NCBI RefSeq assembly: GCF_028752835.1
Contig: NZ_CP087952.1
Span: 1,531,041 to 1,595,040, forward strand
Source of the DNA: Desulfosarcina sp. BuS5
GTDB taxonomy: Bacteria; Desulfobacterota; Desulfobacteria; Desulfobacterales; BuS5
Length of the DNA stretch: 64,000 nt
Direction of reading: 5' to 3'
The notes under the pieces are model-generated. The model saw only the letters and a list, made by a program, of their open reading frames with translations. It was not told where the DNA came from and ran no database searches. Shown piece after piece: positions 41,408-56,392 of the stretch. The position numbers were made by a program, and so were the translations under genes. Each line of letters begins with the position of its first letter. The stretch's first letter is position 1.

Positions 41408-42026
41408 GTTTCAATCCTTGTTGTGGTGGAAGCGGCTCTTTGGGCCCTTTGCCGGTAAAGACTTCCCTATATTCTTTCCTGTTTCAATCCTTGTTGTGGT
41501 GGAAGCGGCTCTTTGGGCCATGTTTTATCCGCTGTTGCAAAATTAAGAACGGTTTCAATCCTTGTTGTGGTGGAAGCGGCTCTTTGGGTTTTGGCGGTAC
41601 CATAGTTGACAGTATTAAAGCATGTTTCAATCCTTGTTGTGGTGGAAGCGGCTCTTTGGGTAAAGCAGCGCACCCACAGATTCGGGATTTATTTAAGTTT
41701 CAATCCTTGTTGTGGTGGAAGCGGCTCTTTGGGTTCAATCACTTCGTTTTCCATTTTCCCCCTCCTTCTTGTTTCAATCCTTGTTGTGGTGGAAGCGGCT
41801 CTTTGGGGTATTCCCTCTACTTGCTTCAGATAGCCTTCTTCTGGTTTCAATCCTTGTTGTGGTGGAAGCGGCTCTTTGGGAATCAATGAAGGGATCAATG
41901 TTGCAATCGTGTCGATGTTTCAATCCTTGTTGTGGTGGAAGCGGCTCTTTGGGATATGCGGATTTGGGGAAAAGTCAATTTGAATTAGAGTTTCAATCCT
42001 TGTTGTGGTGGAAGCGGCTCTTTGGG
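41408..42026 (-). CRISPR. CRISPR array, 9 repeats of 37 bp, 8 spacers
   Basis: Repeats begin GTTTCAATCCTTGTTGTGG and end CGGCTCTTTGGG on the plus strand, starting at 41408, 41481, 41552, 41624, 41697, 41771, 41844, 41917 and 41990. All nine look identical. Spacers are 34-37 bp. Read on the minus strand the repeat ends in ATTGAAAC, the standard 8-nt crRNA handle of type I-B systems, so transcription runs right to left and the leader lies to the right, facing the cas genes. Confidence 0.99.
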
Positions 42027-42185
42027 CCGGAATAACAAAAATATATTTGAATTCCAACATGTTAAGCAGATTATCAAAGAACGATATTTTTAATTTATTA
42101 ATAATTATCATACCGAAAAAGTGATTTAATGCCGTACTGGAGTAAAATTAACAGGTTGTAATTATTTAGCAAAGAAACCTAAATT
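42027..42185 (-). promoter_or_regulatory. Putative CRISPR leader
   Basis: About 160 bp of AT-rich non-coding DNA between the last repeat (42026) and a cas4 remnant, on the side from which the array should be transcribed. New spacers would be added here. No discrete promoter box could be assigned with confidence. Confidence 0.6.
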
Positions 42186-42268
42186 CTATTTTTACAAATA
42201 TTTTTGTAGCAACAATCTGGGCAGTGCTTTTTTACCGGAGTCGGTGTAGGATAGCCGCAATATTTCAT
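42186..42268 (-). pseudogene. cas4: cas4 C-terminal remnant
   Basis: Minus-strand frame MKYCGYPTPTPVKKHC followed by PDCCYKNICKNRI and TAG. It aligns with the C-terminus of the intact Cas4 encoded at 43635-44276 (NNCRYPKPTSVKRRC, PDCCYKNICESTI), including the three iron-sulfur cysteines. It overlaps, in another frame, the 60-codon ORF at 42192-42374. Confidence 0.8.
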
Positions 42269-44384: not shown

Positions 44385-44753
44385 TTATTTATTTTCTGTT
44401 AATTTGTTTCTTGCAAATTCCATGAAGGCTCTAAACCCATCAATAACCTCTAAAGGAAAAGGTGTGACTTCAACATTTTCTTGTGAGCCGTTGTGAAAGT
44501 GAAACGGATAGGTAGATATTTTTTCCCAGTTTTTGTCAGGAAAATTGTCGTATCTGAAAATAGCGTCTGATATATCTTTGCATTCCCAGTGATAACCGAA
44601 CCTGTCTGGTAACTTTTTTGAAAGATTTGCGTCTATAAAGCTATTATCAATCAGAATAATTCTTATTTTATAGGATATTGGGAAAACTTCTTTAACAATA
44701 TCAGAAAATTCTACTTCAGCTATTCTTCTCAAATCATCGATAGTTGCCATCAA
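44385..44753 (-). CDS. DUF6516-family toxin
   Basis: 122 residues. YKIRIILIDNSFIDANLSKK, RFGYHWECKDISDAIFRYDN and STYPFHFHNGSQENVEVTPF are the familiar DUF6516 pattern (a compact putative toxin). The ATG overlaps the stop of the upstream gene (44750-44753), as in coupled toxin-antitoxin pairs. A tail fragment of the same family lies at 34049-34123. Confidence 0.8.
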   Translation of the reverse strand: MMATIDDLRRIAEVEFSDIVKEVFPISYKIRIILIDNSFIDANLSKKLPDRFGYHWECKDISDAIFRYDNFPDKNWEKISTYPFHFHNGSQENVEVTPFPLEVIDGFRAFMEFARNKLTENK

Positions 44754-45025
44754 ATTTCCCTTAAAAATTTTTTTAGTTTATCTCTATCTGCTTCAAGGTT
44801 ATCCAGCGCGAAATAATCTTCATATGAATTTTTTTCACTAATAAACCCATTTTTTACTTTGGAGTCCATTTCAAAAACATCTTGTACCCCATATTTTTTA
44901 GCAAGAATAAAAATATCAGATTCAACCTTTGAAAGCCTTTGTCGTAAATAAGTCTTTACACCCTCCGTTATAAGCATATCCGGGCTCATCTGAAGTTCTT
45001 TTGCTGCTACATTTATGACATTCAT
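44750..45025 (-). CDS. Antitoxin partner of DUF6516 toxin
   Basis: 91 residues: an N-terminal helical segment (AKELQMSPDMLITEGVKTYL) followed by an acidic helical tail (SYEDYFALDNLEADRDKLKK). The small size, gene order and 4-bp overlap with the toxin identify it as the antitoxin. The DNA-binding type cannot be fixed by eye. An ATG with AGGAGGCG upstream supports the start. Confidence 0.75.
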   Translation of the reverse strand: MNVINVAAKELQMSPDMLITEGVKTYLRQRLSKVESDIFILAKKYGVQDVFEMDSKVKNGFISEKNSYEDYFALDNLEADRDKLKKFLREI

Positions 45026-45224
45026 GATACGCCTCCTTTAGTTCTCTTGTAGTTCTCTTGCAATCTATTACCATATCTGTTTATCCTATTTTATCATTTT
45101 CCCAAATTATTTAAACTCATTATTTTTTAAAAATTTACGATGCGGAAAAATTTGCTGTCCCGCTTAATTTTGCTAAAATATAATTTTTATAAATTTTATG
45201 ATATTGTCAAGTCATATCCGGGGG

Positions 45225-45449
45225 TTATAGTTTCATAAATTTGTTTATCATAGGGGCAAAAGGCTTTGGTTTGTGGTTGATAAATTCATTGTACAAGGTG
45301 ACAAATTCGATATATGCGTCAATATCAACCCTGCCGTTTTTTAAAAAAGGATTATGTTTTTGCCTGTTAACTGTATTTATATCTTTTTTGAAAATATCTG
45401 ACTGGGACAGCTTAAATAGTTCCTGCCGGGATTTGTCGGAAATATTCAT
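45225..45449 (-). CDS. Small partner protein of nucleotidyltransferase pair
   Basis: 74 residues (MNISDKSRQELFKLS...), starting by 4-bp overlap with the nucleotidyltransferase stop (45446-45449). Charged and helical, no named domain. Pairs of a nucleotidyltransferase with a small downstream protein are common in toxin-antitoxin and abortive-infection loci. Confidence 0.65.
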   Translation of the reverse strand: MNISDKSRQELFKLSQSDIFKKDINTVNRQKHNPFLKNGRVDIDAYIEFVTLYNEFINHKPKPFAPMINKFMKL

Positions 45450-45991
45450 CCGTTTTTTTCCTCAATCAATTTTTTATACAAATCCTGCATATCAAAAAGA
45501 TAAAAATATTGTTTTAGCAAAGACCGGTCAAGTTCCCGCCCATAAATATTCAGCAAAGATTCGATGTCCGTCATATCTTTCTGAAATCTTTTCGGATCAT
45601 TCTTGATGGCCTGCAGCTTTAATCCCACAAGATCTTCCGGCATCAGCACTCTTATTTTCAAGGAATTATTAAAAATTCCCTTTTCTTGAGCTCTTTTCAG
45701 CATTTCAAGACTTGTCTTTCTGAAAGCATGGAGAAAGTCGACTTCCCCAAAGACCGCTAATGGAGAAATATATTGAGAAACATTTTCACTACGGTATCTG
45801 CACTCGTACCCGGCTTCCGTCATAATTTTTTCAATCTGTTTAACATCGTCCCGGCTGACTAGAAAATCAATATCAACAGTTGTTCTTCCAACTCCACACA
45901 AACCAAGAGCAAATCCGCCCATCAGCGCATAATTTACATTATTTTCGTCAAATTTTTTTAACAGTAATGACAATACTGCTTTGAAATCCAT
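45446..45991 (-). CDS. Nucleotidyltransferase (AbiEii/MNT-like fold)
   Basis: 181 residues. NYALMGGFALGLCGVGRTTV followed by DIDFLV gives the GG...DxD nucleotidyltransferase site; a third acidic position is in GEVDFLHAF. MPEDLVGLKLQAIKNDPKR is typical of the AbiEii/DUF6036-like group. Substrate unknown. Its start abuts the cut end of a cas4 remnant (45995-46130), so the insertion that brought it probably broke that cas4. Confidence 0.82.
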   Translation of the reverse strand: MDFKAVLSLLLKKFDENNVNYALMGGFALGLCGVGRTTVDIDFLVSRDDVKQIEKIMTEAGYECRYRSENVSQYISPLAVFGEVDFLHAFRKTSLEMLKRAQEKGIFNNSLKIRVLMPEDLVGLKLQAIKNDPKRFQKDMTDIESLLNIYGRELDRSLLKQYFYLFDMQDLYKKLIEEKNG

Positions 45992-45994
45992 GGT

Positions 45995-46130
45995 GTTTTG
46001 TTTCCTGTTTTTCCGATATATCCATTATATATTCAAAGCAGACAAACCTCGGCCAATACAGATATGCAAGCATCCAGCTCGCGGTTATCAGATTATCTGA
46101 CAGAGGTTCAATTTCGGGTTGTTTCAGCAT
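45995..46130 (-). pseudogene. cas4: cas4 N-terminal remnant
   Basis: About 45 codons. LITASWMLAYLYWPRFVCFE and YIMDISEKQ align with LTASQMIEYMYCPRFTYFE and YVMDI of the complete Cas4. The first cluster cysteine is Trp here. The frame is lost at the nucleotidyltransferase gene. It sits just downstream of cas3, where cas4 normally follows. Confidence 0.8.
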
Positions 46131-54000: not shown

Positions 54001-54068
54001 TTTTTCATATAAATGATTCCAGTTTATATAGAGATTGTCAATATAAATATCTATTTTATCACATTTTT

Positions 54069-54219
54069 TTATATTACCCTCCTCACGCCCCCAAACCCCC
54101 GTGAAACCTATTTCCTGATCCATAAACAATCAATGATTAAAAAATTAGTTTGAAATATTCCCTTAAACCCTATCGCGCTTTTGCCTTTAAGGTTTACTTT
54201 CACCTCTGTTACCTTATAA
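54069..54219 (-). pseudogene. cas6: cas6 3' remnant (second copy)
   Basis: Minus-strand frame TEVKVNLKGKSAIGFKGIF continuing QTNFLIIDCLWIRK, a TAG, then VSRGFGGVRRVI and TAA. It matches the last 60 residues of Cas6 at 54832-55491 (IKVNLKGKSMTAFTGIF, GKSVSRGFGTVKVMI). The glycine-rich loop contains the stop. The ORF6N gene lies between the two cas6 sequences. Confidence 0.85.
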
Positions 54220-54765
54220 TCAATTTTCCTTCTTTCCATATCCGCTGATTTTTTCTTTAACCATAAATCCAATCTTTTTCTTTTCCTTAACATCTACAGT
54301 CAAAAGCTGATCCAAAATTTCAAAAACAATTTGAAACCGTTAATCTGTCTGTTTACTCAATTCAGCCAGTTCTCGCTTCAAATCTTCATTATCAGAAATC
54401 ATGTGACGAAGCTTTGTAAAGGTTCTCATGATTTGAATATTAACAGCAATTGCTCTATCGCTGTTTAGAATGCCGGACAACATGGCAACCCCCTGCTCAG
54501 TGAATGCGTAAGGCATTTTCCGGACACCGCCTCTGCCTGACTTTTTTGATGTCACAGATTGTGATATCAAAAAATCATATTCGCTTTTTGAAAACTGAAA
54601 CATGAAATCCTCAGGAAAGCGTTTTTCATGCCTTTTTACGGCTTGATTTAAAACTCTTGTTTCAACCCCATACATATTTGCAAGATCTTTGTCCATTATC
54701 ACCTTAACACCACGGATAAAAAATATTTTATTGGCAACAGCCTCAATTGCAATTAGCTCGGACAT
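54220..54765 (-). pseudogene. ORF6N-domain DNA-binding protein with internal stop
   Basis: The first 141 codons contain the ORF6N domain (FFIRGVKVIMDKDLANMYGV, AVKRHEKRFPEDFMFQFSK, MPYAFTEQGVAMLSGIL). A TAA stands at 54342-54340, but the same frame continues with the expected C-terminus (RFQIVFEILDQLLTVDVKEK, KKIGF) to TGA at 54220. So one nonsense mutation truncates the protein; the first 141 residues might still be made. ORF6N/KilA-N proteins are phage- or element-borne regulators. Confidence 0.8.
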
Positions 54766-54831
54766 AATTTAATTCACCTTATTTTATCTTTTTAACACAC
54801 TTCAAAATATTTTAATTTTTCTCTTCTTTTC

Positions 54832-55491
54832 TTATATCATCACCTTTACAGTCCCAAACCCCCTCGAAACTGATTTCCCGATCCCCAGATAATCGGGCAA
54901 ACAGAAATTGGTTTTAAATATTCCTGTAAACGCTGTCATGCTTTTGCCTTTAAGGTTTACTTTTATCTCTTTTAATTTGTGAGCAATTTTAATTTTTTGA
55001 TCTTGTGAAAGCCAGGAGTCAAGATACTTTGCCATGGACAGGATATTCCCTGTCATTACTTTTTTCAGTATCTCGTTCTTTTCATCATTCCCCGCATCAT
55101 TATATTTTTTAAAATTTTTTTGGTTAAGGCCGATCCAGGGCGAGGCAAACTCATACATGAATATTTCATCTGAGTATCCGAATTCGACCTCTTCCACCTT
55201 CAGATCCTTTTCGTAGACAGGAATAACCGTATCTTCGATAATAATTTTATCAAGCTTCATGAAGATTTCCGCAAAAATATTTACAGCCTTGTCTGTTATT
55301 GCAATAATAGCGGGCGTTTTTTCGATCAGCTTGAATTGTATTAATGGATAACGATAAATGGGATTCCCTTTTTCATCATGATTATGAATAAGGTCATGCT
55401 CTTTAAATTCATTTCCCACAAACCCTCTGAATTTATGAATCTGTGATGGCCTTAAATTGATATTATTCAGCAGCAGAGTTGATTTTTTCAT
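54832..55491 (-). CDS. cas6: CRISPR repeat endoribonuclease Cas6
   Basis: About 219 residues from MKKSTLLLNNINLRPS. The C-terminal glycine-rich loop LPDYLGIGKSVSRGFGTVKV is diagnostic of Cas6, preceded by VNLKGKSMTAFTGIFKTNF. It cuts repeat RNA to leave the ATTGAAAC handle. A His likely for catalysis lies in the first third (IHKFRGFVGN, then DLIHNHDEKG). The start upstream of 55491 is less likely because no ribosome site precedes it. Intact. Confidence 0.85.
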   Translation of the reverse strand: MKKSTLLLNNINLRPSQIHKFRGFVGNEFKEHDLIHNHDEKGNPIYRYPLIQFKLIEKTPAIIAITDKAVNIFAEIFMKLDKIIIEDTVIPVYEKDLKVEEVEFGYSDEIFMYEFASPWIGLNQKNFKKYNDAGNDEKNEILKKVMTGNILSMAKYLDSWLSQDQKIKIAHKLKEIKVNLKGKSMTAFTGIFKTNFCLPDYLGIGKSVSRGFGTVKVMI

Positions 55492-55548
55492 ATTTTTACA
55501 CATTTTTGATGTTAATGATCGGCGTGGAATCAATATCTTCTTATGATA

Positions 55549-55748
55549 TTACAAAGTTTCACAGATCGCTTTTAATTTTTTCATATCGTTATCAAATGAA
55601 ATAACGACCTTATTTCGGCCTTTTTTGTTCCCTCAAAGACTTTTGACATAAAGGCTTCTGCTTTAGGGCTATGCACTTTATGATCATCAAGCAAGTATCT
55701 GAGAATAATATTTGTATCAATAAGATACACTTTTTTTGTTGAAGTCAT
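55549..55748 (-). pseudogene. vapC: PIN-domain (VapC-like) toxin with internal deletion
   Basis: From ATG 55748: MTSTKKVYLIDTNIILRYLL carries the first PIN acidic motif. After FEGTKK the frame shifts into the C-terminal end of a PIN protein (NKVVISFDNDMKKL, then KAICETL, TAA at 55549). The middle of the domain, with the central acidic residues, is missing. It lies downstream of the AbrB-like antitoxin gene, separated by 180 bp containing CRISPR-like repeats. Confidence 0.7.
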
Positions 55749-55773: not shown

Positions 55774-55878
55774 GTTTTTTTATCCTTGTTTTAATGGATG
55801 TGATGAAAAAACTATTTTTAAGAAACTATATTTAGTTTCAATCCTTATTGTGTTGGATTTTGTAAGTAACTATATTTA
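55774..55878 (-). other. Two degenerate CRISPR repeats flanking a spacer-like sequence (CreA-like mini-array)
   Basis: 55835-55857 (GTTTCAATCCTTATTGTG and on) matches the first 23 bases of the array repeat at 21 positions. 55782-55803 (ATCCTTGTTTTAATGGATG) matches repeat positions 7-28 at 16 of 22. They are 59 nt apart, leaving about 31 nt between. On the minus strand the first keeps the handle ATTGAAAC. The spacer-like end TAAGAAACTATATTTA (55819-55834) recurs as TAAGTAACTATATTTA at 55863-55878. Two degenerate repeats around one short spacer inside a type I-B locus is the plan of CreA RNAs of CreTA modules. Alternatively it is the relic of an old array. Confidence 0.5.
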
Positions 55879-55927
55879 TAAAAATAGAAATATCAATAAT
55901 AAATTTCCAAATTCACTTTTATAGAAA

Positions 55928-56191
55928 TCAATCTGATAAACCTTCTTTTGCTGTTTCATCAGCGATTTCATCCTGTATTTTCTCTCTTATTTTTTTTAAG
56001 GGAACATATCCCTTTGCATATTTTTTCAGACTTCCGGCTAATTGTTCCGCTTGAACTCCGGGAACACCTTTCAGCTTGACCTCGTTGTCTTCAACAAGAA
56101 ACAACACAGCGCCATCTTTTTCGATTTTTAATTTTTCCCTGATTGGTTTAGGAATCGTTATTTGACCCTTCTTTGATATTTTTGCATACAT
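55928..56191 (-). CDS. AbrB/MazE-like antitoxin (VapB-type)
   Basis: About 87 residues from MYAKISKKGQITIPKPIREK, the classic swapped-hairpin AbrB DNA-binding motif, with a C-terminal helical tail (LKKIREKIQDEIADETAKEG). It likely paired with the PIN toxin now broken at 55549-55748. An upstream TTG at 56209 is a less likely start. The toxin is dead, so the antitoxin may persist as a regulator. Confidence 0.85.
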   Translation of the reverse strand: MYAKISKKGQITIPKPIREKLKIEKDGAVLFLVEDNEVKLKGVPGVQAEQLAGSLKKYAKGYVPLKKIREKIQDEIADETAKEGLSD

Positions 56192-56392
56192 TTTACATTT
56201 GCCCTTCAAATTAATATATTCTTACTTTTTAAGATAATCTGCCTTATAGCATAATGCAAACATTAATGTTTTCGGCTTTCATTTTATCCGTATATTAGGC
56301 ATCCTTCATATCACTTCAAAAATATTTTACACTTTTTTAAAAAAATAAACCCATCTGTGTTTATCTGTGTGCATCTGTGTCCCATTATTGTT

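Follow-up and report, generated by a model that had tools for sequence, protein, structure and literature searches.

A predicted CreA/CreR-type guide between vapB and vapC in a type I-B cas locus of Desulfosarcina sp. BuS5 and its relatives

In the type I-B CreTA module of H. hubeiense, the gene creT is placed between the promoter and creA, and creA follows the rule that its first degenerate repeat (psiR1) keeps the handle and its second (psiR2) the core (PMC8501985). Any seed mutation of this creA at positions 1 to 5 or 7 to 11 abolished repression, whereas mutations at position 6 or 12 did not (PMC8501985). Two further types are outlined in a review (PMC12737573): CrePA, in which CreA represses a KilA-N protein toxin, and CreR, which comprises cas-regulating RNAs. 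Two kinds of CRISPR-repressed toxin are known from the literature searched: CreT, a small RNA, and CreP, a protein with a KilA-N domain. A mini-array placed between an antitoxin and a toxin gene, as found here in three genera, is not described in that literature, CreR and CrePA being judged from the review (PMC12737573).

The window, the whole 64-kb stretch of DNA that was analyzed, carries on its minus strand, in this order, cas1, cas2 (56689-56393), vapB, the mini-array, a vapC remnant, cas6b, an ORF6N gene, a cas6 relic, an ATPase gene, cas8b (Csh1/TM1802), cas7, cas5, cas3, small genes, cas4 and the CRISPR array. The locus was typed as I-B on the basis of Cas6b, Cas2, Cas1, a Csh1/TM1802-type Cas8b, Cas7, Cas5, Cas3 and Cas4. 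Every cas gene scanned has a complete open frame and matches its family (Cas5 weakly), so Cascade looks intact. The real array (41408-42026) consists of nine identical 37-nt repeats with the 3' end TCCACCACAACAAGGATTGAAAC and of spacers of 34 to 37 nt. vapB (55928-56209) is intact and encodes an AbrB/MazE-fold antitoxin of 93 amino acids (Pfam MazE_antitoxin, 5.6e-08; TIGR01439) that is 89% identical to the VapB of a related genome, G186. The vapC pseudogene (55552-55748) has kept its N-terminal 46 codons and a C-terminal remnant; about 70 codons (47 to 116) are deleted out of frame. It is followed by cas6b (54832-55533; Pfam Cas6b_N and Cas6b_C), which leads the downstream effector operon. 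The location given by the sequence-only reading, between an AbrB-type vapB and a broken PIN-type vapC and between cas2 and cas6b of a type I-B locus, is therefore correct.

Several other features of the locus are recorded here in their own right. The ORF6N-domain gene adjoining cas6 (54340-54765) is present in several relatives too and ends at 141 amino acids in the window, its counterpart in G186 having 180. ORF6N is similar to KilA-N, the domain of the CreP toxins. Targeting of this neighboring gene by the guide was rejected, since a whole-genome pattern search found no second copy of the target before it. At its 3' side lies a C-terminal relic of cas6 (54054-54293; 73% identity to 54817-54998), which is shared with G186, L036 and L037, and two cas6 genes that are about 30 to 40% identical occur within one type I-B locus in G186, G009, G078 and G079. 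Two cas4 fragments, one beside the array (42179-42268) and one between cas3 and cas4 (45948-46130), suggest that cas4 was duplicated and decayed repeatedly in this locus. The interval between cas3 and cas4 (44385-45991) holds small genes, including one for a nucleotidyltransferase-like protein, that resemble toxin-antitoxin material.

When both strands of the window were scanned without gaps for the 3' 23 nt of the array repeat, the scan returned the nine array copies at 23/23, followed by psiR1 at 21/23 and psiR2 at 17/23; all other sites reached at most 16/23. The two degenerate repeats that had been noticed 59 nt apart, in array orientation on the minus strand, thus indeed rank directly behind the nine real repeats. 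psiR1 (TCCAACACAATAAGGATTGAAAC, 55835-55857) is the copy already described as handle-bearing with 21 of 23 matches; its 5' handle ATTGAAAC (55842-55835) is intact, 13 of 15 core positions match, and the repeat is kept in G186. psiR2 (TCCATTAAAACAAGGATAAAAAA, 55776-55798) has lost the handle, and its core, TCCATTAAAACAAGG, is that of the array repeat of G186. Between them lies psiS, a spacer-like guide of 36 nt (55799-55834), which together with one 23-nt repeat accounts for the start-to-start distance. In the window, the difference between the cores of psiR1 (13/15) and psiR2 (12/15) is not clear. Also, the present array repeat differs from the one that psiR2 resembles, so that compatibility with Cas6 is not assured in the window. 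An ordinary array is not what we found: there are only two, divergent repeats, both lack the first 14 of the 37 nt of a full repeat, and the ungapped scan of the 64-kb window revealed no third copy beside them.

The comparison of the vapB-vapC gap in related loci, proposed earlier as a check, found the mini-array in two further genera (G186 and G344), so that a refutation for want of conservation fails. In G186 (contig JAJSZT010000015.1), the insert sits at the identical junction of vapB and vapC, and vapC is intact and encodes a PIN-domain protein of 136 amino acids. Compared with the repeat of the G186 array (13 copies, ATTGAAGAGAAGATTCCATTAAAACAAGGATTGAAAC), psiR1 retains 11/15 of the core and 8/8 of the handle, psiR2 15/15 of the core and 5/8 of the handle; the two have therefore degenerated in complementary ways, as in creA. 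In G344, which belongs to another family, psiR1 TCCAAACCAACAGGGATTGAAAT, a psiS of 25 nt and psiR2 TCCACCTAAAACAAGG lie between vapB and an intact vapC, and cas8-cas7-cas5-cas3 follow; a CRISPR array of its own was not found in this genome, which is 60% complete. In both relatives an AbrB-type antitoxin gene precedes a PIN toxin gene, as in type II vapBC operons. In most of the related vapBC operons, among them that of G001 from the same genus, the two genes overlap by about 25 nt and there is no insert.

The window and G186 are close homologues and not independent cases. Their mini-arrays are identical at 77/81 positions (95%), compared to 77/97 (79%) in the immediate noncoding flanks (Fisher P=0.003). 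vapB, the mini-array and the 5' end of vapC are 90 to 95% identical, compared to 83% for cas1 and 82% for cas6, a difference that suggests joint recombination of the three. The module cas1-cas2-vapB-mini-array-vapC-cas6-ORF6N is nearly alike in the two (L061 and L062 in G186), but the I-B effector set attached to it is Cst1/Cst2 in G186 and Csh1/TM1802 in the window; therefore, effector modules were swapped.

The spacer-like segment had been said to share 15 of 16 bases with a nearby site, and this match holds: positions 1 to 16 of psiS match 55878-55863, on the minus strand, at 15/16, with the sole mismatch at position 12. This protospacer-like self-target, TAAATATAGTTACTTA (55863-55878), would pair with psiS positions 1 to 11 and 13 to 16 and is preceded directly at its 5' side by a PAM-like TTA (55879-55881) that is kept in G186 and G344, TTTTTA being present in all three. 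For a Parageobacillus I-B system, experiments have established TTA as the PAM (PMC10551041). In the 4.18-Mb genome, the pattern TAAATNTAGTTNCTTA occurs at these two sites only (one match with the reversed control). The pairs of psiS and target, with mismatches in lower case, are TAAATATAGTTtCTTA / TAAATATAGTTaCTTA in the window, TAGATaTAGTTtGTTg / TAGATtTAGTTaGTTa in G186 and TATGTtTGATTcGAAT / TATGTaTGATTtGAAT in G344. In all three, the target is on the same strand and begins 21 to 29 nt upstream of psiR1, and positions 1 to 5, 7 to 11 and 13 to 15 are matched (13/13). Position 12 is mismatched in all three loci, position 6 in two. Position 6 is unpaired in Cascade. When the upstream region of the window was shuffled with its dinucleotides preserved, a 10/10 seed match was obtained with P=0.0046 and the 13/13 match with P=5e-5; for G186 and G344, none of 20,000 shuffles each reached 13/13. 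Moreover, guide and target co-vary between the window and G186, with A/A changed to G/G at position 3 and C/C to G/G at position 13, and the change at position 6 affected the target alone. Credible protospacers for 43 spacers were not found by searching two exact 24-nt patterns against viral contigs, 18 concatenated spacers against phages and all 43 against 389 genomes; the weak matches obtained (25/35 and 28/36) were left unused and do not fix the PAM of these particular systems.

A promoter overlapping 55863-55878 had been suggested, and a consensus scan predicted a putative -10 box, TATAGT (55869-55874, minus strand), over target positions 5 to 10, with a putative -35 box, TTGATA, at 55891-55896. 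The candidate promoters are TTGATA-16-TATAGT (10/12) in the window, TTGACA-16-TTTAGT in G186 and TTGTTA-16-TATGAT in G344, with the -10 boxes at identical target positions. The G186 candidate was absent from the scan output because of its -10 box, TTTAGT, and G344 has a second candidate -10 box, TATAAT, of equal score just 5' of the target. Since about five such hexamer pairs are expected by chance per 900 nt, and the number found was no better than chance, the hexamers are weak on their own; this part of the suggestion stands as a prediction of position and not as a significant motif. The 16-nt target ends about 5 nt before psiR1 in the window and 5 to 13 nt before it across the three loci. 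After psiR2 comes vapC, and then, within about 50 to 70 nt, cas6 or cas8; no terminator in the orientation of the unit was predicted between vapC and the next cas gene. Because of these short gaps and the lack of predicted terminators, guide, vapC and effector cas genes probably form one transcription unit. Of the candidate promoters ahead of vapC-cas6, the best one is that overlapped by the target.

The short-spaced mini-array pattern had four matches in 389 genomes: the window, G186, G344 and a shortened spacer inside a true array (G144); the reversed control had none. The vapC-linked mini-array thus has two relatives only among the genomes sampled, and a DNA similarity search with the G186 insert against the 389 genomes of the order and 17 genomes of the G186 family returned only the window and G186. 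With a longer gap (53-75), the pattern also matched G009, along with matches that, as far as inspected, read as ordinary arrays; in L023 there is one repeat-like match. The G009 element (G009:C44:9059-9139, minus strand; L014, L034, L122) lies between cas6 and cas8 without a toxin gene. It consists of psiR1 TCCATCACAAAAAGGATTGAAAT, which retains the handle, and psiR2 TCCATTAAAACAAGG, which retains the core, as in G186, and its target GATATGAAGTATTAAT lies behind TTG. Guide and target match at 13/13 (0/20,000 shuffles). The 10/10 seed match at positions 1 to 5 and 7 to 11 is therefore found in the window, G186, G344 and G009, with TTA, TTA, TTA and TTG as PAM, at sites that are predicted promoters. 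By its CreR-like position, the G009 mini-array is a CreR candidate. The interval from there to cas8 contains a strong inverted repeat (CATGCTTGGGATT...AAATCCCAAGCATG). With the exception of G009, no mini-array with the common repeat was seen in the several I-B loci of relatives that lack vapBC.

In a tree of VapC (one tree), the mini-array VapCs are not sisters: that of G186 groups with G001 (99/96) and that of G344 with G294 (99/97), most other forks having no resolution. A single vertical origin is therefore not supported, and the element may have arisen by repeated gain or by an ancient gain followed by losses. In L036 (1630-1757), a C-terminal relic of vapC stands alone between cas2 and cas6, and vapB is gone; vapBC thus decays repeatedly in such loci.

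From anatomy, conservation, seed register and covariation we infer Cascade-guided repression at the target, and we consider it likely that the element is a CreA/CreR-type guide by which Cascade represses the promoter of the guide itself and thereby also vapC and the effector cas genes. The promoter just upstream would give rise to a crRNA-like transcript of the mini-array. Cleavage by Cas6 at psiR1 would leave the handle AUUGAAAC and cleavage at psiR2 the 3' part, and the processed RNA is predicted to begin AUUGAAAC-UAAAUAUAG, from 55842 on the minus strand. Type I-B Cascade loaded with this guide would bind the -10 region of its own promoter by TTA and the match at positions 1 to 5, 7 to 11 and 13 to 16, and would block transcription. 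Cleavage of the target is not expected, since the match ends by about position 20 and is too short. Because the unit runs on into vapC and then into the effector cas genes, Cascade would keep its guide in check and likewise the PIN toxin and the cas genes of its own operon. The guide mechanism would be equal in all four loci, with different outputs: cas in G009, both cas and VapC in the relatives G186 and G344, and cas in the window, where vapC is dead.

Compared with the two-psiR creA of haloarchaeal type I-B systems (PMC8501985), the element has the same divergently degenerate repeats, the same division of handle and core (in G186 and similarly in G009), the same seed match to its own predicted promoter, a PAM and a cas setting. 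It differs in being bacterial, in having no creT before the guide, in the PIN toxin gene downstream and VapB upstream, and in a match that extends to positions 13 to 16. The earlier proposal of a CreA-type guide on a local promoter with a link to a protein toxin is supported in that its architecture recurs in two further genera, where the seed register is that of CreA, the PAM is conserved, guide and target co-vary and the repeats are divergent, but the element is not a canonical CreTA. As in CreR, as outlined in the review (PMC12737573), a mini-CRISPR guide ahead of effector cas genes matches the predicted promoter from which it would itself be transcribed, and the G009 copy fits this directly; in contrast to CreR, the gene next to the guide is vapC in the window, G186 and G344, where the unit interrupts a vapBC operon. 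CreR has no coupling to a toxin; here, G009 has no toxin, the toxin of the window is dead, and vapC is intact in G186 and G344. Since the targeted promoter precedes the effector cas operon and the toxin-free mini-array of G009 precedes cas8, the label CreR, for autorepression of cas, suits the element no less well than CreA. As in CrePA, as outlined in the same review (PMC12737573), Cascade with a crRNA-like guide is predicted to repress a protein toxin, but the gene here encodes a VapC-type PIN nuclease and not a KilA-N protein, the VapB antitoxin is retained, and toxicity is here a prediction. Compared with ordinary type II vapBC, the AbrB/MazE-fold VapB and the PIN-domain VapC are homologous to the cas-linked vapBC of relatives, whereas the usual overlap of the two genes is replaced by a promoter and the mini-array.

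Within this likely explanation, two accounts of the selected function were weighed. If repression of VapC is what is selected, the element would be an addiction or anti-anti-CRISPR switch like CreTA or CrePA: loss of Cascade, by mutation or by an Acr, would free VapC, and the effect on cas would be secondary. All three short mini-arrays sit exactly between antitoxin and toxin, the usual overlap of cas-linked vapBC is broken at the insert, vapC is intact in G186 and G344, the mini-array and the 5' end of vapC are more alike than cas1 or cas6 between the window and G186, and a protein-toxin variant is known from CrePA, as outlined in the review (PMC12737573). However, the window has a broken vapC next to a mini-array that still matches its target well, the product of the vapB gene upstream could neutralize VapC, and the effector cas genes, too, lie behind the targeted promoter. 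We hold this account to be possible, but somewhat below an even chance. If, on the other hand, autorepression of the effector cas operon is the sole function and vapC is a passenger as its first gene, the position of the promoter upstream of vapC-cas6-cas8 or vapC-cas8 with 50 to 70 nt to the next cas gene, the equivalent toxin-free mini-array before cas8 in G009 and the retention of the element in the window after the death of vapC would all fit. Yet a pure cas regulator need not lie between vapB and vapC, and three do; also, the related I-B loci without vapBC, G009 apart, showed no such mini-array. This account, too, we hold to be possible, and likewise somewhat below an even chance. In the window, an addiction role is unlikely because the toxin is dead, and what is left there is probably autorepression of cas6 and of the genes that follow it, whereas in G186 and G344 the PIN toxin is probably placed under Cascade.

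That the segment is a functionless remnant of a decayed second array, which had been kept in view from the start, fits the two degenerate repeats, the array-like spacer length and a locus rich in gene relics. It was rejected as very improbable, since the element is conserved above its flanks in G186 and paralleled in G344, a third repeat is lacking, handle and core were lost complementarily, and the seed register and the covariation tie the guide to the upstream site. A canonical CreTA with an RNA toxin, to which the CreA-like guide and the self-targeted promoter would conform, was rejected as the least probable reading, since psiR1 begins 5 to 13 nt past the 16-nt target (only about 5 nt in the window), no creT fits into this space, and the next gene is vapC.

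In the relatives, the CreA/CreR-type guide would part vapC from vapB and supply vapC with a Cascade-repressed promoter of its own; loss or inhibition of Cascade should therefore raise VapC relative to VapB. A possibility that we rate a little short of even is that a CRISPR system thereby captured a type II toxin: the mini-CRISPR between vapB and vapC would have swapped VapB-coupled expression for repression by Cascade, so that inhibition of Cascade frees a PIN ribonuclease. The arrangement would have arisen or moved more than once, one guide would serve toxin and cas genes, and the window would represent a later stage, with the toxin dead and the guide kept as a cas regulator. The four guide-target pairs provide a search rule for CreA and CreR in bacteria: an isolated handle, a match at positions 1 to 5, 7 to 11 and 13 to 15, and a PAM just upstream. 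Sequence similarity alone misses such elements. If true, a Cascade-controlled VapC would bring type II toxins of a very widespread family into the reach of CRISPR regulation and would show a route by which such switches evolve, with a mini-CRISPR and its promoter wedged between antitoxin and toxin.
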